Positions 6,570 through 53,209 of a stretch of 64,000 nucleotides of DNA are shown in pieces. The notes beneath the pieces were generated by a model. The model saw only the letters and a program-made list of their open reading frames with translations, was not told where the DNA came from and made no database searches. Both the position numbers and the translations under genes were made by a program. How positions within the stretch are numbered: position 1 is the stretch's first letter; every line of letters begins with the position of its first letter. The stretch comes from Parafrankia irregularis (GTDB lineage Bacteria; Actinomycetota; Actinomycetes; Frankiales; Frankiaceae), in the NCBI RefSeq assembly GCF_001536285.1, contig NZ_FAOZ01000001.1, positions 310,001 to 374,000 of the forward strand, written 5' to 3'.

Positions 6570-6604
6570 CTCGGCCCGCACCGGATCATCCGGTGCGGGC
6601 CGAG
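6570..6604 (-). terminator. Hairpin terminator of the left end of the glycan locus
   Basis: A perfect 15-bp inverted repeat (6570-6584 with 6590-6604) with a 5-base loop, about 85 bases past the stop of the minus-strand glycosyltransferase. It is a very strong structure and the natural end of that transcript. Confidence 0.7.
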
Positions 6605-41909: not shown

Positions 41910-43418
41910 CTAGGTGGTGCCAGCAGGCTCCGGTTTGGTCGGCGCGAGACTCATCGGCTCGTCGCCGGTCCCCCGGGGCTTGCGGGGATCATGGGGCACG
42001 CGAGGATCACGGGGCACGTGGGGATCACGGGCCATCGCGGCTCTGGTCCACAGGCTGACGACCCCATAGGCGATCAGGCTCGCCCACGCCGCGCCCACCA
42101 TGCCCGCCGCCGGAATCAGGATGACATCAGCGGCCGCGACCACGACCAGTCCGACCAGGCCCGCCGCACCGCACGCCTTGGTCCGGCCCTGACCGCTCAG
42201 GACCCGGGCGTCGATCTGGAAGGCCACCAACAGAAGCTCGGCGACCAGAAGCACCCGTAGCGGGGTGACCGCGCTCCGATAGGCATCGCCGAAGAAGAAC
42301 AGAACAAGGTGGTCCGCGGCGAGCCACATGAGCGCGGCGACTCCGGCCATCACCGCAAACACGCGAACCAGTTCGGCGAACACAGCTCGGGTGCCCATCG
42401 TGCCGCTGGCCACCCGGTAGCAGAGCACCTGGCCCCAGGAGGACGGGACAAGCCGGAGAATCTCACTCGCGGTCGCCGCAACGCTGTAGATGCCCACGGC
42501 CGACGTCCCCGACATCACCCCGATCAGATACCGGTCGAGCCGGAAGGTCATCGACATCGCGGTGTTCATGCCGAGCGCGGGAACGCCCGTCCGGATCAGC
42601 AGCACGGATGCGGCACGGTCCAGCTGGGGCCGGCTCACCAGACCCGCCCGCCGCAGGAGAAGGAACCCGGCGACGCACTGGAAAGCGCCCGCGACGACGG
42701 ACACCGCGAGAACCGGAGCCACTCGCAGCGTCCCGGCCGATACCTGCAGCACGGCCAGGGCCGCCAGCTGCGCCAGGCAACCCGCCGTGTTGACGAGGGC
42801 CGAGGCGATCACCTGGCCGACCGCGTTCAACGTGTCGATCAGCTGGATGCCCAGCAAGGTCGACACGGACAGCAGCCCGGTGAGCACCAGAATTCCGGGA
42901 CCCCGCTCGGGCGCGTCCGCCAGCCAGAGGGTCGGCCCCACGATGCCGGCGGTAAGCAGGCACTGCGGCACCAGGAGCAGCAGGCTCAGCCCGAGTACGT
43001 GGTCGACCGAGACCCGCGGGTCCGTGCGCCCGAGATAGTACCGAGCGGAGGTACCCGTACCCAGCGCGACGAACATCCCGGTGAGACCGGTGACCGTCAG
43101 GATCAGGACGAGCTCGCCCCGGCCCCCGACGTCCAGGGCGCGTGCGGTCATCACCGCGACGACCAGGTTCGTCAACGCAGCGCCCAGCGCCGCGGCGGAT
43201 ACGGCGACAGCGGGACCGGCGACACCGGACGCCCGCGCCGCGGAGCGCCCGGCCCCACGCGAGACCGCGCGGTGGCGCCCGCCCGGGGAAGGTGGCTCGG
43301 GATGAACGTCGCCCCCGCCGGCAGCACTACCGACGGCGCCACCGGCAGCACCACCGACGGCGGAACCGTGCCCGGCAGGCGGGACAGTGCCGGCACCGGC
43401 CCGGCGCACGCCGCTCAT
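41910..43418 (-). CDS. Polysaccharide flippase (Wzx/MATE-like), second copy
   Basis: A 502-residue protein with about 12-14 hydrophobic helices from residue 75 on (ALTNLVVAVMTARALDVGGRGELVLILTVTGL is the typical first pair). It would export lipid-linked repeat units. The ATG at 43418 overlaps the polymerase stop (ATGA), so I take it over a far longer upstream frame that is antisense to that gene. A 70-residue Gly/Ala-rich N terminus and a C-terminal DPHVPRDPRVPHDPRKPRG repeat flank the membrane part. Distinct from the flippase at 26763. Confidence 0.87.
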   Translation of the reverse strand: MSGVRRAGAGTVPPAGHGSAVGGAAGGAVGSAAGGGDVHPEPPSPGGRHRAVSRGAGRSAARASGVAGPAVAVSAAALGAALTNLVVAVMTARALDVGGRGELVLILTVTGLTGMFVALGTGTSARYYLGRTDPRVSVDHVLGLSLLLLVPQCLLTAGIVGPTLWLADAPERGPGILVLTGLLSVSTLLGIQLIDTLNAVGQVIASALVNTAGCLAQLAALAVLQVSAGTLRVAPVLAVSVVAGAFQCVAGFLLLRRAGLVSRPQLDRAASVLLIRTGVPALGMNTAMSMTFRLDRYLIGVMSGTSAVGIYSVAATASEILRLVPSSWGQVLCYRVASGTMGTRAVFAELVRVFAVMAGVAALMWLAADHLVLFFFGDAYRSAVTPLRVLLVAELLLVAFQIDARVLSGQGRTKACGAAGLVGLVVVAAADVILIPAAGMVGAAWASLIAYGVVSLWTRAAMARDPHVPRDPRVPHDPRKPRGTGDEPMSLAPTKPEPAGTT

Positions 43419-45106
43419 CGGGAGGCCAGCGAGCGCAGACCGGCACTCGTCCCCTGCGCCCCCCGCATCCTCTGCGACCCGGGCGACCCCTGCGGCGCCA
43501 GTCTCGCCGGCCGCGCGGAGTCGTTCAGGCTGCCGGAGCCCACCTGCGGGGCACGGTTCCACCGGCCGGGCGAGGCGCTGCGCCACCAGTGCCCGGCCGC
43601 TCGGACCGCGACCAGCACAACGGTGCCGACCAGGACCTGCATCGGCAGCGGGGTGAAGTCGTTGCGCACCCCGATCAGGAGCGGCACAAGAAGGACGCTG
43701 CAGGCCGCGTCGGTCCACCTCGACCGCCAGCCGTCGAGCCAGCCGCACAACAGGCCGATGACGAAGAGGATGGCCACCACGCCGGGAAGGCCGAAGTTGT
43801 AGTAGGCCTCGGCGATCGGAGAGCCACCGATCGGACCGGATCGTTCTCGGATGACCGTGTTGAACAGCCGGTCGTCGATCTCGGCCGGTGGCTGCGGGAT
43901 TCCGAGCAGGCGCCCTTCGATGATGCGGGCAAGCTGACCGGTGTAGGTCCGGCCGCCCGCCGCGGGTTCGCCGTACCCGTCTCGCCAGGTGACCGCCTCC
44001 GCTACGGGACGAAGCGACGCCCCCATCTCGGCCAGACCGTCGAGGGGTCCGAAGCCGATCTGGCTCAGCGTGACCTCGGCCAGGCCATGCTGACGGATGT
44101 CCCGAAGCGCCCCGACGGCGCTCAGGAGGGCGACTCCCGCCAGCAGCGCGGCCCCTATCCCGGTCCAGCGGCTCGATCCGCGTCGCCCGCCTCGTTTTCC
44201 CGCGACGACGGAGTCGCGGGAAAACGAGGCGGGCAGGCGGATCTCGAGGCCACGACCAGCGGCTTTGGCCGGCGGAAACGAGGGGACGTCGCCGGACCGG
44301 CGCATCATGTGAGCCACGGCGGCCGCAGCCACCGGGAACAGGATGGTTCCCCGCATACCCAGTGGCAACGCGATCAGCGCGAACAGCCCGAACATCAGGT
44401 AGCCCGTCCGGCGTATCCGCCGCCCGCCATCGACGGTCAGCAGCATGAGGCCGAAACCCAGACCGAAATCCAGATAGGGAACCAGCGGATCGCGATATGC
44501 CAGGGTGATCAGGTCCTCGTACGATCCGAACAGCAGGCCGCTCCCGCCAGCCCGCCTGATCAGCAGGAGCATCAGGCTGATCGAGGCGGCGAGGATCGCG
44601 AATCCGACCACGCCGGTCGCGGCCGACCTCGTCGGCGGTGCAGGTATGTCGGCAGGCATGTCCGTACCGGTCGACCGGTCGCGGTACACCCGGCCAGCCG
44701 ACGAAGCAGGCAGGGACATTCCCACCGCGGCAGCTGCCACGCCGATCGCCGCGATCGTGAAAATCCGTCCCGTCGAGACGGACAGGATCCAGTCGAAACC
44801 GAGCTGCCCGTCGCTGGAGACCAGTGGGCGGTGCAGCGCGAGCGGCAGCGCGAGCCCGAAATGGAACAGGACCAGCAGTACGAGGTAGACCGCCGAACAC
44901 GAGAGGACGCCCTGCGTCCGGGCCCGGACGCAGAGCGCGACGAGGCACCCGAGCAGGCTGAAGGTCACCGCCGCGACCCCGGCCGGAGGCAGTGCCGAGA
45001 TCTCCTCCGAGAACGCCAGCAGAGCTGCGAGAATGCCGCCGGCGCCCAGCCGGAAGGCCAGCACCCGCGGGCCCACACCGAAAGCGACGGGCACGCCGGT
45101 TGTCAC
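43415..45106 (-). CDS. O-antigen-like polymerase (Wzy), second copy
   Basis: A 563-residue membrane protein with about 12 hydrophobic segments. Long loops carry SYEDLITLAYRDPLVPYLDFGLGFGLML and RIIEGRLLGIPQPPAEIDDRLFNTVIRERSGPIGGSPIAEAYYNFGLPGVV. The last block (E-x-YYNFG) is typical of repeat-unit polymerases. The GTG at 45106 is chosen because it overlaps the preceding stop (GTGA). A perfect 22-bp hairpin (44185-44234) lies within the gene, in the codons for the loop reading PASFSRDSVVAGKRGG. A Ser/Gly/Arg-rich tail of ~50 residues ends it. Confidence 0.78.
   Translation of the reverse strand: MTTGVPVAFGVGPRVLAFRLGAGGILAALLAFSEEISALPPAGVAAVTFSLLGCLVALCVRARTQGVLSCSAVYLVLLVLFHFGLALPLALHRPLVSSDGQLGFDWILSVSTGRIFTIAAIGVAAAAVGMSLPASSAGRVYRDRSTGTDMPADIPAPPTRSAATGVVGFAILAASISLMLLLIRRAGGSGLLFGSYEDLITLAYRDPLVPYLDFGLGFGLMLLTVDGGRRIRRTGYLMFGLFALIALPLGMRGTILFPVAAAAVAHMMRRSGDVPSFPPAKAAGRGLEIRLPASFSRDSVVAGKRGGRRGSSRWTGIGAALLAGVALLSAVGALRDIRQHGLAEVTLSQIGFGPLDGLAEMGASLRPVAEAVTWRDGYGEPAAGGRTYTGQLARIIEGRLLGIPQPPAEIDDRLFNTVIRERSGPIGGSPIAEAYYNFGLPGVVAILFVIGLLCGWLDGWRSRWTDAACSVLLVPLLIGVRNDFTPLPMQVLVGTVVLVAVRAAGHWWRSASPGRWNRAPQVGSGSLNDSARPARLAPQGSPGSQRMRGAQGTSAGLRSLASR
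44185..44234. repeat. Perfect 22-bp inverted repeat inside the polymerase gene
   Basis: Bases 44185-44206 are exactly complementary to 44213-44234, with a six-base loop GACGGA. Each arm holds an internal TTTT/AAAA run inside otherwise GC-rich sequence. It stays in frame in the polymerase gene. Size and perfection exceed what chance or coding constraints usually give. Confidence 0.9.
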
Positions 45107-46284
45107 TGATCCCACAGGCTGGTCATGCCGCGCCGCCACTGGTCCATCACGAACGGGGAGGAGGAGAACGCATGAAGTGCCTGTACGCGCTGCGCCGATG
45201 TGGGCGGTGCGGCCAGCATGCCGGCCGCGGCCTCGGCCCAGGCCTCGGAGGCGCAACCTTGCGGCACCGTCGTCACGCCGTCGAGCAGGCGGCCGATCTC
45301 CACGACTCCGGGCAGGTCCGGAGCAAGCACCGGCGTGCCCACGGCGCAGGCCTCGAGGACGACGGTCGGCAGGCCCTCGTGCCGTGAGGTCAGCAGCAAC
45401 AGGTCAGCACCAGCCATCAGGCCGGGGATGTCGAACGACTCGCCGGGCAGGTCGAAGGCGTCGGCGACCCCGCCGAGCTCGGCCCGGCGACGCAGCTGGG
45501 CCGACTCGTGTGCGTCCTGGCGGCCGACGACGCGCAGCCGGGCCGGAACACCGCGCCGCCGCAACGCGATCAGAACGTCAACCGCGGCGCTCCGGTTCTT
45601 CACCGGATCGGGCCGCCCGACGTGCACGATGGTGGGCCGCCATTCGGCCGCCGCCGTGGAGGCGACGGCGGCAGCGACGACTGGGGAGGCTGGGGAGGCT
45701 GGGGAGGTGGTGACGAGCGCGCGCTCGAACGGTGCCGGGTCCAACCCGTTGTAGAGCACCCGGCAACGACGCTCCCGCTGCCAGTCCGACCGCCACAGGC
45801 TGGTCATCGTGGCCTCGGCGACCGCGACGAGATCGGTGGCGAACCAGTCGATCAGCTGCCGCATCACCGCGCGCTGGACACGTCCCCGCAGGCTGGCACC
45901 GTGGCGGTCGCCGGTGCTGTGAAAGTGCGCCACCCGCAGGGGCACGCCGGCGGCCCTCGCGATCAGCAGGATCGCCCCGGAGAAGGTGGCCACACACGAA
46001 TGCACGACGTCGGGTCGCAGTGCGCGCAGCAGGCGGAGGAAACGCACCGGAAAACCCAGGTCGAGGCGACAGGGGTGGACCGAGCCGCCCAGCGAACGGA
46101 TCTCCTCCGCCAGGGCGCCGGGACGGCCGGTGAGGGTGACGAAGACGAACCGGTAGCGATCCGGGTCCAGATTGCGCATCAGGTCGACGGTGCGCAGTTC
46201 GGCACCGGCCCGGTCCATGACACCGAACACGTGCAGGACCGTACGGGGCCGCGGGCGCGCGGACGCCCGGTCCGCGACACTCAT
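45103..46284 (-). CDS. Glycosyltransferase family 4
   Basis: A 393-residue GT-B enzyme: TVLHVFGVMDRAGAELRTVDLMRNL at the start, DVVHSCVATFSGAILLIARAAGVPLRVAHFHSTGD, VLYNGLDPAPFER, IVHVGRPDPVKNRSAAVDV, and HEGLPTVVLEACAVGTPVLAPDLPGVVEIG with E-x7-E. Almost every block matches the gene at 6687-8054, so they are paralogues placed 38 kb apart. An Ala/Ser/Pro insert at about 205-220 separates the domains. It overlaps the polymerase (GTGA) and the next glycosyltransferase (ATGA). Confidence 0.88.
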   Translation of the reverse strand: MSVADRASARPRPRTVLHVFGVMDRAGAELRTVDLMRNLDPDRYRFVFVTLTGRPGALAEEIRSLGGSVHPCRLDLGFPVRFLRLLRALRPDVVHSCVATFSGAILLIARAAGVPLRVAHFHSTGDRHGASLRGRVQRAVMRQLIDWFATDLVAVAEATMTSLWRSDWQRERRCRVLYNGLDPAPFERALVTTSPASPASPVVAAAVASTAAAEWRPTIVHVGRPDPVKNRSAAVDVLIALRRRGVPARLRVVGRQDAHESAQLRRRAELGGVADAFDLPGESFDIPGLMAGADLLLLTSRHEGLPTVVLEACAVGTPVLAPDLPGVVEIGRLLDGVTTVPQGCASEAWAEAAAGMLAAPPTSAQRVQALHAFSSSPFVMDQWRRGMTSLWDQ

Positions 46285-51025: not shown

Positions 51026-53209
51026 CTAGCCCGTCAGCCGATCCTCGTGCACCAGCTGGCCGGACAGGCGTCGCCCTCCCGTGTCGACGCGCTGCGAGCC
51101 GCGATATGCCCGAGATCGTGATGCCGGGCCGCGCACGCCGATCTTCAACGGCGCGGTGTTCGGTGGAACCGGAGTGCCGGTCAGATCGGATCCGCCCGCC
51201 ACAGGGGCTACCGCTGTGGTCGCCGTGAGCGAGGTTGCCTCGGGAACAGGCTGAGGGAACACACCACCGGCGCCAGGCGACCCGGATGTGACCTTGATCG
51301 GCCCTGTCATCGTCGACTCGCCCACCTGCGGCAGCCGCCGGAGACGGTCATCCCATTCCTTCAGCCAGCTAAGCACCCGCTCCCCCGTCATCGGGCGGGA
51401 GACGAAGTAACCCTGCGCCTCGTCGCACTGCCAGGCAGCGAGTGAGGCCCACGAGCGCGACGTCTCGACGCCCTCGGCCACGATGCGCAGGCTCAGGGCA
51501 TGTGCGAGGGAGACGGTGGATCGGACGATCTCCGCCGCGGAGGGGTCTCGGTCGATGTCACGCAGAAAGCGCTGATCGAGCTTCACCTCATCGGCCGGGA
51601 GCTCGAGCAGATAGGCAAGGGAGCACAGCCCGGTGCCGTAGTCGTCGAGGCTGACCCGCACACCGTGGTCACGCAGGCCCGCGAGCGTTCGCTGCGCCTT
51701 CTCCAGAACCGTGATGAGCCCGTCCTCGGTGACCTCGACGACCAGTGCCGACGGGGGCAGGCCATGGAGCTCCAGCTCCCCGCGTACCAGGTCGACGAAT
51801 CCCGGGTCGACGATGACCGAGGCCGGCACGTTCACCGACACCGCGAGCGTGGCCCCGGCCGCGCGCCACCGAACGCAGTCGGTGAGGGCCAGGTCGAGGA
51901 CACGCCGGGTCAGCAGCTCCATCAGACCCGCCCGCTCCATCTCGGGAAGGAAGAGGTCCGGCGGCCGGAGGCCTCCGGTGGGATGCCGCCAGCGCACCAG
52001 GGCCTCGACTCCGCTGATCCGCCCGCTGCGCATGTCGACCTTGGGCTGGTAACGCAGCTCGATCTGGCCCTCGTCCAGCGCTTCACGCAGATCGGCACGC
52101 AGCCCCAGGCTCGCCCGACTCCCCAGCTGGCAGTCGGGAGCGTAGACGCGTTGGCCGCTGTGGGTGCCCTTCGCCGTGTACATGGCTTCTTCTGCCCGCC
52201 GCATAAGCTCGAGCACGTTCCGCCCGTGTTCCGGGAAATGGGCGATACCCACGCTCACCTCCGCCTGCACGCGCAGGTCGTCGAGGCTGACCGGTGTCCG
52301 CAGTGCCTCCCTGATTCGCCGCGCCACCCCCTCCGCGTCGGGGAGGTCGACGCCGCGCAGCAGTGCCGCGAACTCGTCACCGTCCACGCGCGCCAGCAGA
52401 TCGTCGGCGCCCAGAACCTGCTGGAGCCGGTCACTGACGGACCGAAGCAGTCGGTCACCGTTCTCATGACCGAGTGTTCCGTTGATATCCCGCAGGCGAT
52501 CAAGGTCGACGAGAATGAGTGCGGCGGGCGCGGCGCCGCCGGCCCGATGCCCGCCTCCCAGCCAGTGGCCGGCGGTCTTCAGGAAATGCCGGCGGCCCGG
52601 CAGGCCGGTGAGGCCGTCCACGCCGCGCCGGCGCCGGCCGAGCAGCGCGGCCGCTCGGCCGCTGACGCCCAGCACCGGCAGACCGACGGCAAGCGTCGTC
52701 GCCAGGGAGGAAGCCAGGATCGCAGGCAGAGTCGACCCTCCGCGGCAGAGCGACCAGACCACGATGGAAACCAGTAGGACCGGGGCGAGGACGAGTGCGG
52801 CGGCAGCCCGGTGCGCCGATCCGAGCGCGACGGAACGACGGACAGCCATCGGCCGGGCCGAACCGGCGCCGCCGGAGCACGGTGCCGGGTCCGACGGCGG
52901 CGTGGAGGCCCCCGCCCGCACCGGGCCGGGGGCCTCCACGCCGCCGAGCACCACATATCCACCCGGACCGGAACAGGCCGTCTCACCCTCGCCTGCGCCG
53001 GCGGTGTCGACTCCTGTCAGCGCAGCGCACGCCGACGGCCCGGACGAATCGTTGTGCTCACCCATCGGGTTTCGTTCCGCTGGCGCGTGCGTCACCGGCG
53101 CTTCCGCTGCTGCCCGTACCGGCACCGGCACACCGGGAGGACCCGCCGGCAGCCTGCGAGGCAGGGTACGCCGCCTGCTCGTGCGGTCCACTCGCGCCGA
53201 GGTCACCAC
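51026..53209 (-). CDS. GGDEF-EAL protein (cyclic di-GMP turnover)
   Basis: A 727-residue membrane protein. The N-terminal ~120 residues are low complexity, two hydrophobic helices follow (about 133-155 and 160-185), then a GGDEF domain (about 195-365) and an EAL domain (about 375-620). The signature GGDEF reads DGDEF and the RxxD inhibitory site is absent, so cyclase activity is doubtful. The EAL domain keeps EALVRWRHP, SVNVPAS, VVEVTEDG, DDYGTG, VKLDQ, VAEGVET and AQGYFVSRP, so it should hydrolyse c-di-GMP. No sensor domain is seen. The start is probably GTG at 53209 (AGGTGAG 5 bases upstream); ATGs at 53065 and 52849 are alternatives. Confidence 0.88.
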   Translation of the reverse strand: MVTSARVDRTSRRRTLPRRLPAGPPGVPVPVRAAAEAPVTHAPAERNPMGEHNDSSGPSACAALTGVDTAGAGEGETACSGPGGYVVLGGVEAPGPVRAGASTPPSDPAPCSGGAGSARPMAVRRSVALGSAHRAAAALVLAPVLLVSIVVWSLCRGGSTLPAILASSLATTLAVGLPVLGVSGRAAALLGRRRRGVDGLTGLPGRRHFLKTAGHWLGGGHRAGGAAPAALILVDLDRLRDINGTLGHENGDRLLRSVSDRLQQVLGADDLLARVDGDEFAALLRGVDLPDAEGVARRIREALRTPVSLDDLRVQAEVSVGIAHFPEHGRNVLELMRRAEEAMYTAKGTHSGQRVYAPDCQLGSRASLGLRADLREALDEGQIELRYQPKVDMRSGRISGVEALVRWRHPTGGLRPPDLFLPEMERAGLMELLTRRVLDLALTDCVRWRAAGATLAVSVNVPASVIVDPGFVDLVRGELELHGLPPSALVVEVTEDGLITVLEKAQRTLAGLRDHGVRVSLDDYGTGLCSLAYLLELPADEVKLDQRFLRDIDRDPSAAEIVRSTVSLAHALSLRIVAEGVETSRSWASLAAWQCDEAQGYFVSRPMTGERVLSWLKEWDDRLRRLPQVGESTMTGPIKVTSGSPGAGGVFPQPVPEATSLTATTAVAPVAGGSDLTGTPVPPNTAPLKIGVRGPASRSRAYRGSQRVDTGGRRLSGQLVHEDRLTG
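52901..52940. repeat. Perfect 14-bp hairpin in the GGDEF-EAL gene
   Basis: Bases 52901-52914 pair exactly with 52927-52940 around a 12-base loop. If translation starts at 53209 it lies in the codons for residues 90-103; if it starts at the ATG at 52849 it lies in the leader as a possible attenuator. Confidence 0.8.

Follow-up and report, generated by a model that had tools for sequence, protein, structure and literature searches.

A perfect 22-bp hairpin in a wzy-like polymerase gene of Parafrankia irregularis and its possible origin in fold-back copying

Introduction

Template switching between inverted repeats makes the two arms identical, as described in yeast (PMC8604942) and in E. coli (PMC7202029), and it can create a perfect stem in a single event (PMC8794818). 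Perfect inverted repeats inside protein-coding genes are reported from the mitochondria of Nematomorpha, where they are numerous, reach 284 bp and have both arms encoding conserved residues, and where template switching has also been suggested (PMC6649704). In-gene palindromes of another kind are the Rickettsia palindromic elements, which are about 150 bp long and multi-copy (PMC10969869).

We analysed a 64,000-nt stretch of the genome of Parafrankia irregularis, referred to here as the window, which carries a long hairpin at 44185-44234 inside a polysaccharide polymerase gene. As in the quasipalindrome template-switch mutations of yeast and E. coli, the arms of the inverted repeat are identical and lie in coding DNA, and several neighbouring residues appear to have changed together; unlike those cases, the event at this locus is a reconstruction (PMC8604942, PMC7202029). 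The template-switch origin of hairpins described in PMC8794818 concerns RNA genes, whereas the present stem is part of a coding sequence and bears no mark of being conserved. The locus shares with the Nematomorpha genes a perfect inverted repeat in protein-coding sequence, but its arms encode a variable loop, and called genes hold two stems of at least 18 bp in the 1.27 Mb surveyed (PMC6649704). Like the Rickettsia elements the hairpin is palindromic, in frame and located in a tolerant protein, but it is single-copy (PMC10969869). It is a real and rare feature, and its most likely cause is an ordinary one.

Results and Discussion

The hairpin and the gene that carries it

Examination of the polymerase gene confirmed the perfect 22-bp hairpin that a sequence-only reading had reported there, the arms pairing at 22 of 22 positions without a mismatch around a 6-nt loop (Table 1). 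An outer, imperfect stem extends it on both sides. Folding of a 96-nt segment of the transcript strand gave -72.3 kcal/mol, against -42.2 +/- 3.7 kcal/mol for 200 shuffled versions. A first-order Markov sequence of 2 Mb contained no stem of at least 14 bp (loops of 3-20 nt), and by extrapolation from it stems of at least 22 bp are expected about 1.5e-6 times per 64 kb, so that the hairpin is not a product of chance. The TTTT and AAAA runs in its arms are, as the same reading held, foreign to the local composition: the whole window has 73 starts of such runs, and only four of them (44195, 44221, 44760 and 46051) fall between 38152 and 50023.

Table 1. Coordinates in the window of the hairpin, the surrounding genes and the comparison palindrome
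Feature	Position	Strand	Remarks
Probable flippase gene, Wzx-like, downstream of wzy	41910..43418	-	Polysacc_synt; ATGA overlap with wzy stop
wzy-like polysaccharide polymerase gene	43415..45106	-	PF14296; GTG start overlaps upstream stop
Glycosyltransferase gene, GT4-like, upstream of wzy	45103..46284	-	
Imperfect stem extension GATCCGC ... GCGGATC	44175..44243	.	GATCCGC 44175-44181, GCGGATC 44237-44243; from sequence and RNA folding
Block without counterpart in the EUN1f orthologue, 72 nt = 24 codons, L287-G310	44177..44248	-	From alignment; placement ambiguous by a few nt
Palindrome arm 1	44185..44206	.	Downstream arm on the coding strand, codons VAGKRGG
Hairpin loop GACGGA, 6 nt	44207..44212	.	
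Palindrome arm 2	44213..44234	.	Upstream arm on the coding strand, codons PASFSRD
Second long in-gene palindrome, comparison case	52895..52946	.	Perfect here, imperfect in EUN1f

The polymerase gene encodes 563 residues and matches PF14296 with 40.6 bits (cut-off 26.6), as scored on the longer open reading frame 43415-45256. The match of the Wzx-like protein to Polysacc_synt reaches 22 bits, under the cut-off of 28.2. The stop codon of the glycosyltransferase gene overlaps the polymerase start in GTGA, and the polymerase stop overlaps the flippase start in ATGA, overlaps which suggest that the three genes form a translationally coupled operon.

The hairpin is in frame at codons 291-308 and belongs to a loop of 56 residues (260-315) between hydrophobic segments at 241-259 and 316-334. 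With 11 K/R and 3 D/E residues, this loop is probably cytoplasmic by the positive-inside rule for membrane proteins. The predicted structure of the polymerase has a mean pLDDT of 39 and is too poor for use.

Long stems in the genome and its own palindromic family

A census of perfect stems with loops of up to 20 nt was made over 1,270,937 bases of the same genome, window included. It returned 53 stems of at least 14 bp, two of which overlap each other, and a simulated sequence of 1.8 Mb returned none; long perfect stems as a class therefore exceed chance in this genome. Forty-one of the 53 lie outside called genes and 12 inside, these in-gene counts being approximate, as the calls are rough ones from codon usage and class 69-82% of each contig sample as coding. 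Fifteen stems reach at least 18 bp, and the two of these in called genes are the hairpin, which is the longer, and the palindrome at 52895-52946. Another 22-bp perfect stem with a 6-nt loop, at G000:C1:403700-403749 (L068:9700-9749), equals the hairpin in size but is conserved: it lies outside called genes and is identical in EUN1f.

The genome also harbors a dispersed palindromic family of its own, the AAGAGTGAAGGATTTTGGT family, with a consensus of about AAGAGTGAAGGATTTTGGTCGTTCCAACGACCAAAATCCTTCACTCTT that is sometimes extended by ATCCGC...GCGGAT. Its members include G000:C1:433355-433416 (L069:19355-19416), G000:C1:36870, G000:C1:124243, G000:C6:81564 and others, and six of the 15 longest census stems were recognised by eye as members, all outside called genes. 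A 30-nt core pattern found 66 copies here, 21 in EUN1f and none in four other Parafrankia, and its backwards control found none. Eighteen copies were used to build a covariance model, which gave at least 150 matches, both strands counted, here and in EUN1f, six in G019 and one each in G023, G031 and G033. The hairpin resembles this family in its ATCCGC/GCGGAT end and in the offset of its TTTT run, and membership was considered; with filters at their defaults and E allowed up to 10, the model found nothing in the window, and the resemblance is put down to coincidence. The hairpin thus stands outside the family.

Comparison with related polymerases

The nearest relative found is EUN1f, also a Parafrankia, whose polymerase is 89% identical at the protein level. 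Its orthologue lacks exactly 24 codons, and the gap covers the whole hairpin, both arms included. The loop was also much shorter in all six aligned Frankia orthologues, and shorter in EI5c. The sequence-only reading had proposed that an in-frame insertion would be tolerated in this inter-membrane loop, and the exact 24-codon difference and the short Frankia loops support this. The amino acids encoded by the hairpin are common to none of the orthologues seen.

The linker of P. colletiae is identical in length to that of the window and aligns with it without a gap; in the alignment 38 of 78 nt agree (codon-shuffle p 4e-5), as do 10 of 26 residues (shuffle p 0.0003 for the score). Its longest perfect stem is 6 bp, and it has diverged too far to serve as an imperfect sister version of the hairpin. 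DNA identity to P. colletiae falls to 44-54% in four 39-nt windows of the loop, against 74-97% in 17 surrounding windows, which marks the loop as a fast-changing part of the gene. By parsimony with P. colletiae, these alignments suggest that the long loop predates the split between EUN1f and the lineage of the window and that EUN1f then lost the 24 codons.

A ready-made element, a duplication or an artefact as possible alternatives

The sequence-only reading had also raised the possibility of an inserted palindromic repeat. A ready-made element of MITE, REP or Rickettsia-palindromic-element type would have entered in frame in the lineage of the window, EUN1f representing the empty site. The gap in EUN1f, coinciding with the hairpin, fits such an insertion as well: the 72-nt difference matches the whole imperfect palindrome, with its ATCCGC...GCGGAT ends and TCGAG on both flanks, and in-frame insertion is known for elements of this type (PMC10969869).

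Searches by DNA, by the exact palindrome pattern and by the arm with up to three mismatches did not recover the multiple dispersed copies of such an element. The pattern occurs once in the 9.5 Mb of the organism's own genome, not at all in five congeners and not in viral contigs, and a plasmid search with the hairpin yielded two weak matches (E 0.6). Among the 35 genomes of the family searched by DNA, the hairpin's own locus scored E 5.5e-37 and the best match in the 34 others only E 0.0014; every genome gives some match at E<=1, so that weak matches are uninformative, and no perfect stem longer than 10 bp was found near the nine inspected (C8:308133 in the own genome and eight elsewhere). A separate source for the arms was considered in CCTCGTTTCCGC, which lies upstream within the gene at a distance of about 50 nt, but the similarity was not significant (shuffle 0.11). 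Palindromes of this kind in Frankia were not found in the literature covered, which takes in little from subscription journals.

The flanks carry a TCGAG direct repeat but no clean target duplication. Its two copies are spaced at 71 nt, whereas EUN1f differs by 72 nt and by further bases, and a simple duplication therefore fails to give the in-frame EUN1f site; moreover TCGA is self-complementary, so that the direct repeat follows in part from the stem itself. The equal length and alignability of the P. colletiae linker would have to be a coincidence, and the hairpin lies outside the real palindromic family of the genome. Taken with the single copy, these observations make the insertion of an element unlikely.

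The short loops of EI5c and the Frankia orthologues, and the missing block in the closest relative found, would also be expected if the lineage of the window had started with a short loop like that of EUN1f and had gained arms and length together in a snap-back event, independently of P. colletiae. EUN1f, however, lacks both arms and not one, and the identical length and alignable sequence of the P. colletiae linker would again be coincidental; we consider such a duplication quite unlikely.

The presence of the hairpin in only one assembly might point to an inverted chimera arising in the library or the assembly, and a fold-back is indeed the shape of some chimeras. The reading frame, however, is unbroken through both arms and the linker has the same length as in P. 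colletiae, which leaves an artefact very improbable.

A proposed regulatory role

A further proposal was that the hairpin acts as a transcription attenuator, or another RNA control element, lowering expression of the downstream flippase. The RNA hairpin is very stable, and it stands upstream of wzx in what appears to be one transcription unit. No terminator-like site was found in 43900-44500, however, and the transcript after the stem reads GACGCGGATC, with no U-tract. Since, in addition, the GTGA and ATGA overlaps run along the three genes, ribosomes should cross the hairpin, and attenuation is unlikely on both counts. Seven Rfam matches up to E 1 (six microRNA precursors and one VA RNA) were all far below the gathering score, and the hairpin structure has no counterpart in EUN1f, P. 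colletiae or EI5c. These results do not favour the proposal, and we judge it very improbable.

Probable fold-back copying in a dispensable loop

With somewhat better than an even chance in our estimation, the hairpin is a fold-back (template-switch or quasipalindrome) mutation in a dispensable, arginine-rich loop, with in-frame loss in EUN1f, and neither an element nor a switch. The nascent strand would have folded back in the course of replication and served as its own template, switching between short inverted repeats ('quasipalindrome correction'), so that one arm became the reverse complement of the other. The hairpin would have survived because it is in frame and lies in a dispensable, positively charged and probably cytoplasmic loop of the polymerase. 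In EUN1f the entire 72-nt block may later have been deleted in frame. Palindromes between short direct repeats are prone to deletion, and imperfect CGTGG/CGCGG repeats lie exactly 72 nt apart at the block.

One arm is the exact reverse complement of a segment 6 nt away, as template switching would produce. The likelier template would be the upstream arm (PASFSRD) and the likelier copy the downstream arm (VAGKRGG), which has the more atypical codons and the poorer match to the P. colletiae protein. Against windows from 270 called genes, codon adaptation ranks the downstream arm, read in frame, near the 3rd percentile and LPASFSRD, from the upstream part, near the 22nd; LPASFSRD agrees with P. 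colletiae at five of eight residues (p 0.003) and VVAGKRGG, from the downstream part, at two of eight (p 0.10). This direction is tentative, because the arms are equal in DNA identity to P. colletiae (11 of 22 each) and because poor codons also occur in the flanks and in the P. colletiae linker: adaptation is 0.34 in the downstream arm, 0.29 in that linker, and 0.41 both just upstream of the block and in RRGSS after it.

Template switching was also sought elsewhere, in 78,493 columns aligned with EUN1f. Two substitution clusters, at 52904 and 6594, form a perfect palindrome here, out of 672 clusters or, depending on the setting, 324 with three or more substitutions. The complement control gave none in four of four settings and the reversed control none in three settings and two in one. 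The first cluster belongs to the comparison palindrome, a 20-bp perfect stem with a 12-nt loop in gene 51026-53209, which is putatively GGDEF-EAL-like; EUN1f differs there at four bases. This imperfect/perfect pair is compatible with fold-back copying. The second, a cluster of three substitutions, disrupts in EUN1f a perfect stem of 17 bp around a 1-nt loop, which lies at 6570-6604 of the window, outside called genes.

The 52895 pair, the scan clusters and the codons and protein match of the downstream arm are three lines that point weakly towards template switching. Against fold-back copying stand the reversed control, which equals the signal in one setting, a stricter scan in which none of 246 clusters qualified, and EUN1f, which by lacking the block gives no pre-event sequence of the hairpin locus. 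What the comparisons show is the palindrome, its uniqueness within the sequences searched, its place in the loop, the 72-nt difference and the equal-length linker of P. colletiae; how and in which direction the copying took place, whether gain came before loss, and the lack of a function are inferred.

Conclusion

The mechanism favoured for the hairpin, fold-back copying, is an ordinary one, and the example is unusually clean. Whether it reaches further is a long shot: fold-back copying might repeatedly drive loop change in the surface-polysaccharide genes of this Parafrankia lineage, in which in-frame inverted duplications would lengthen and rewrite the cytoplasmic loop of the polymerase, and the palindromes so formed would allow the change to be undone by an exact deletion in frame, of which EUN1f would be an instance. 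If fold-back copying is the true origin, the locus would show cleanly, in a bacterium, how a long perfect palindrome can be gained and lost within a coding gene with the frame unbroken. Such hairpins would then need neither a regulatory nor a mobile-element explanation, and perfect hairpins inside genes should not be taken as functional by default.
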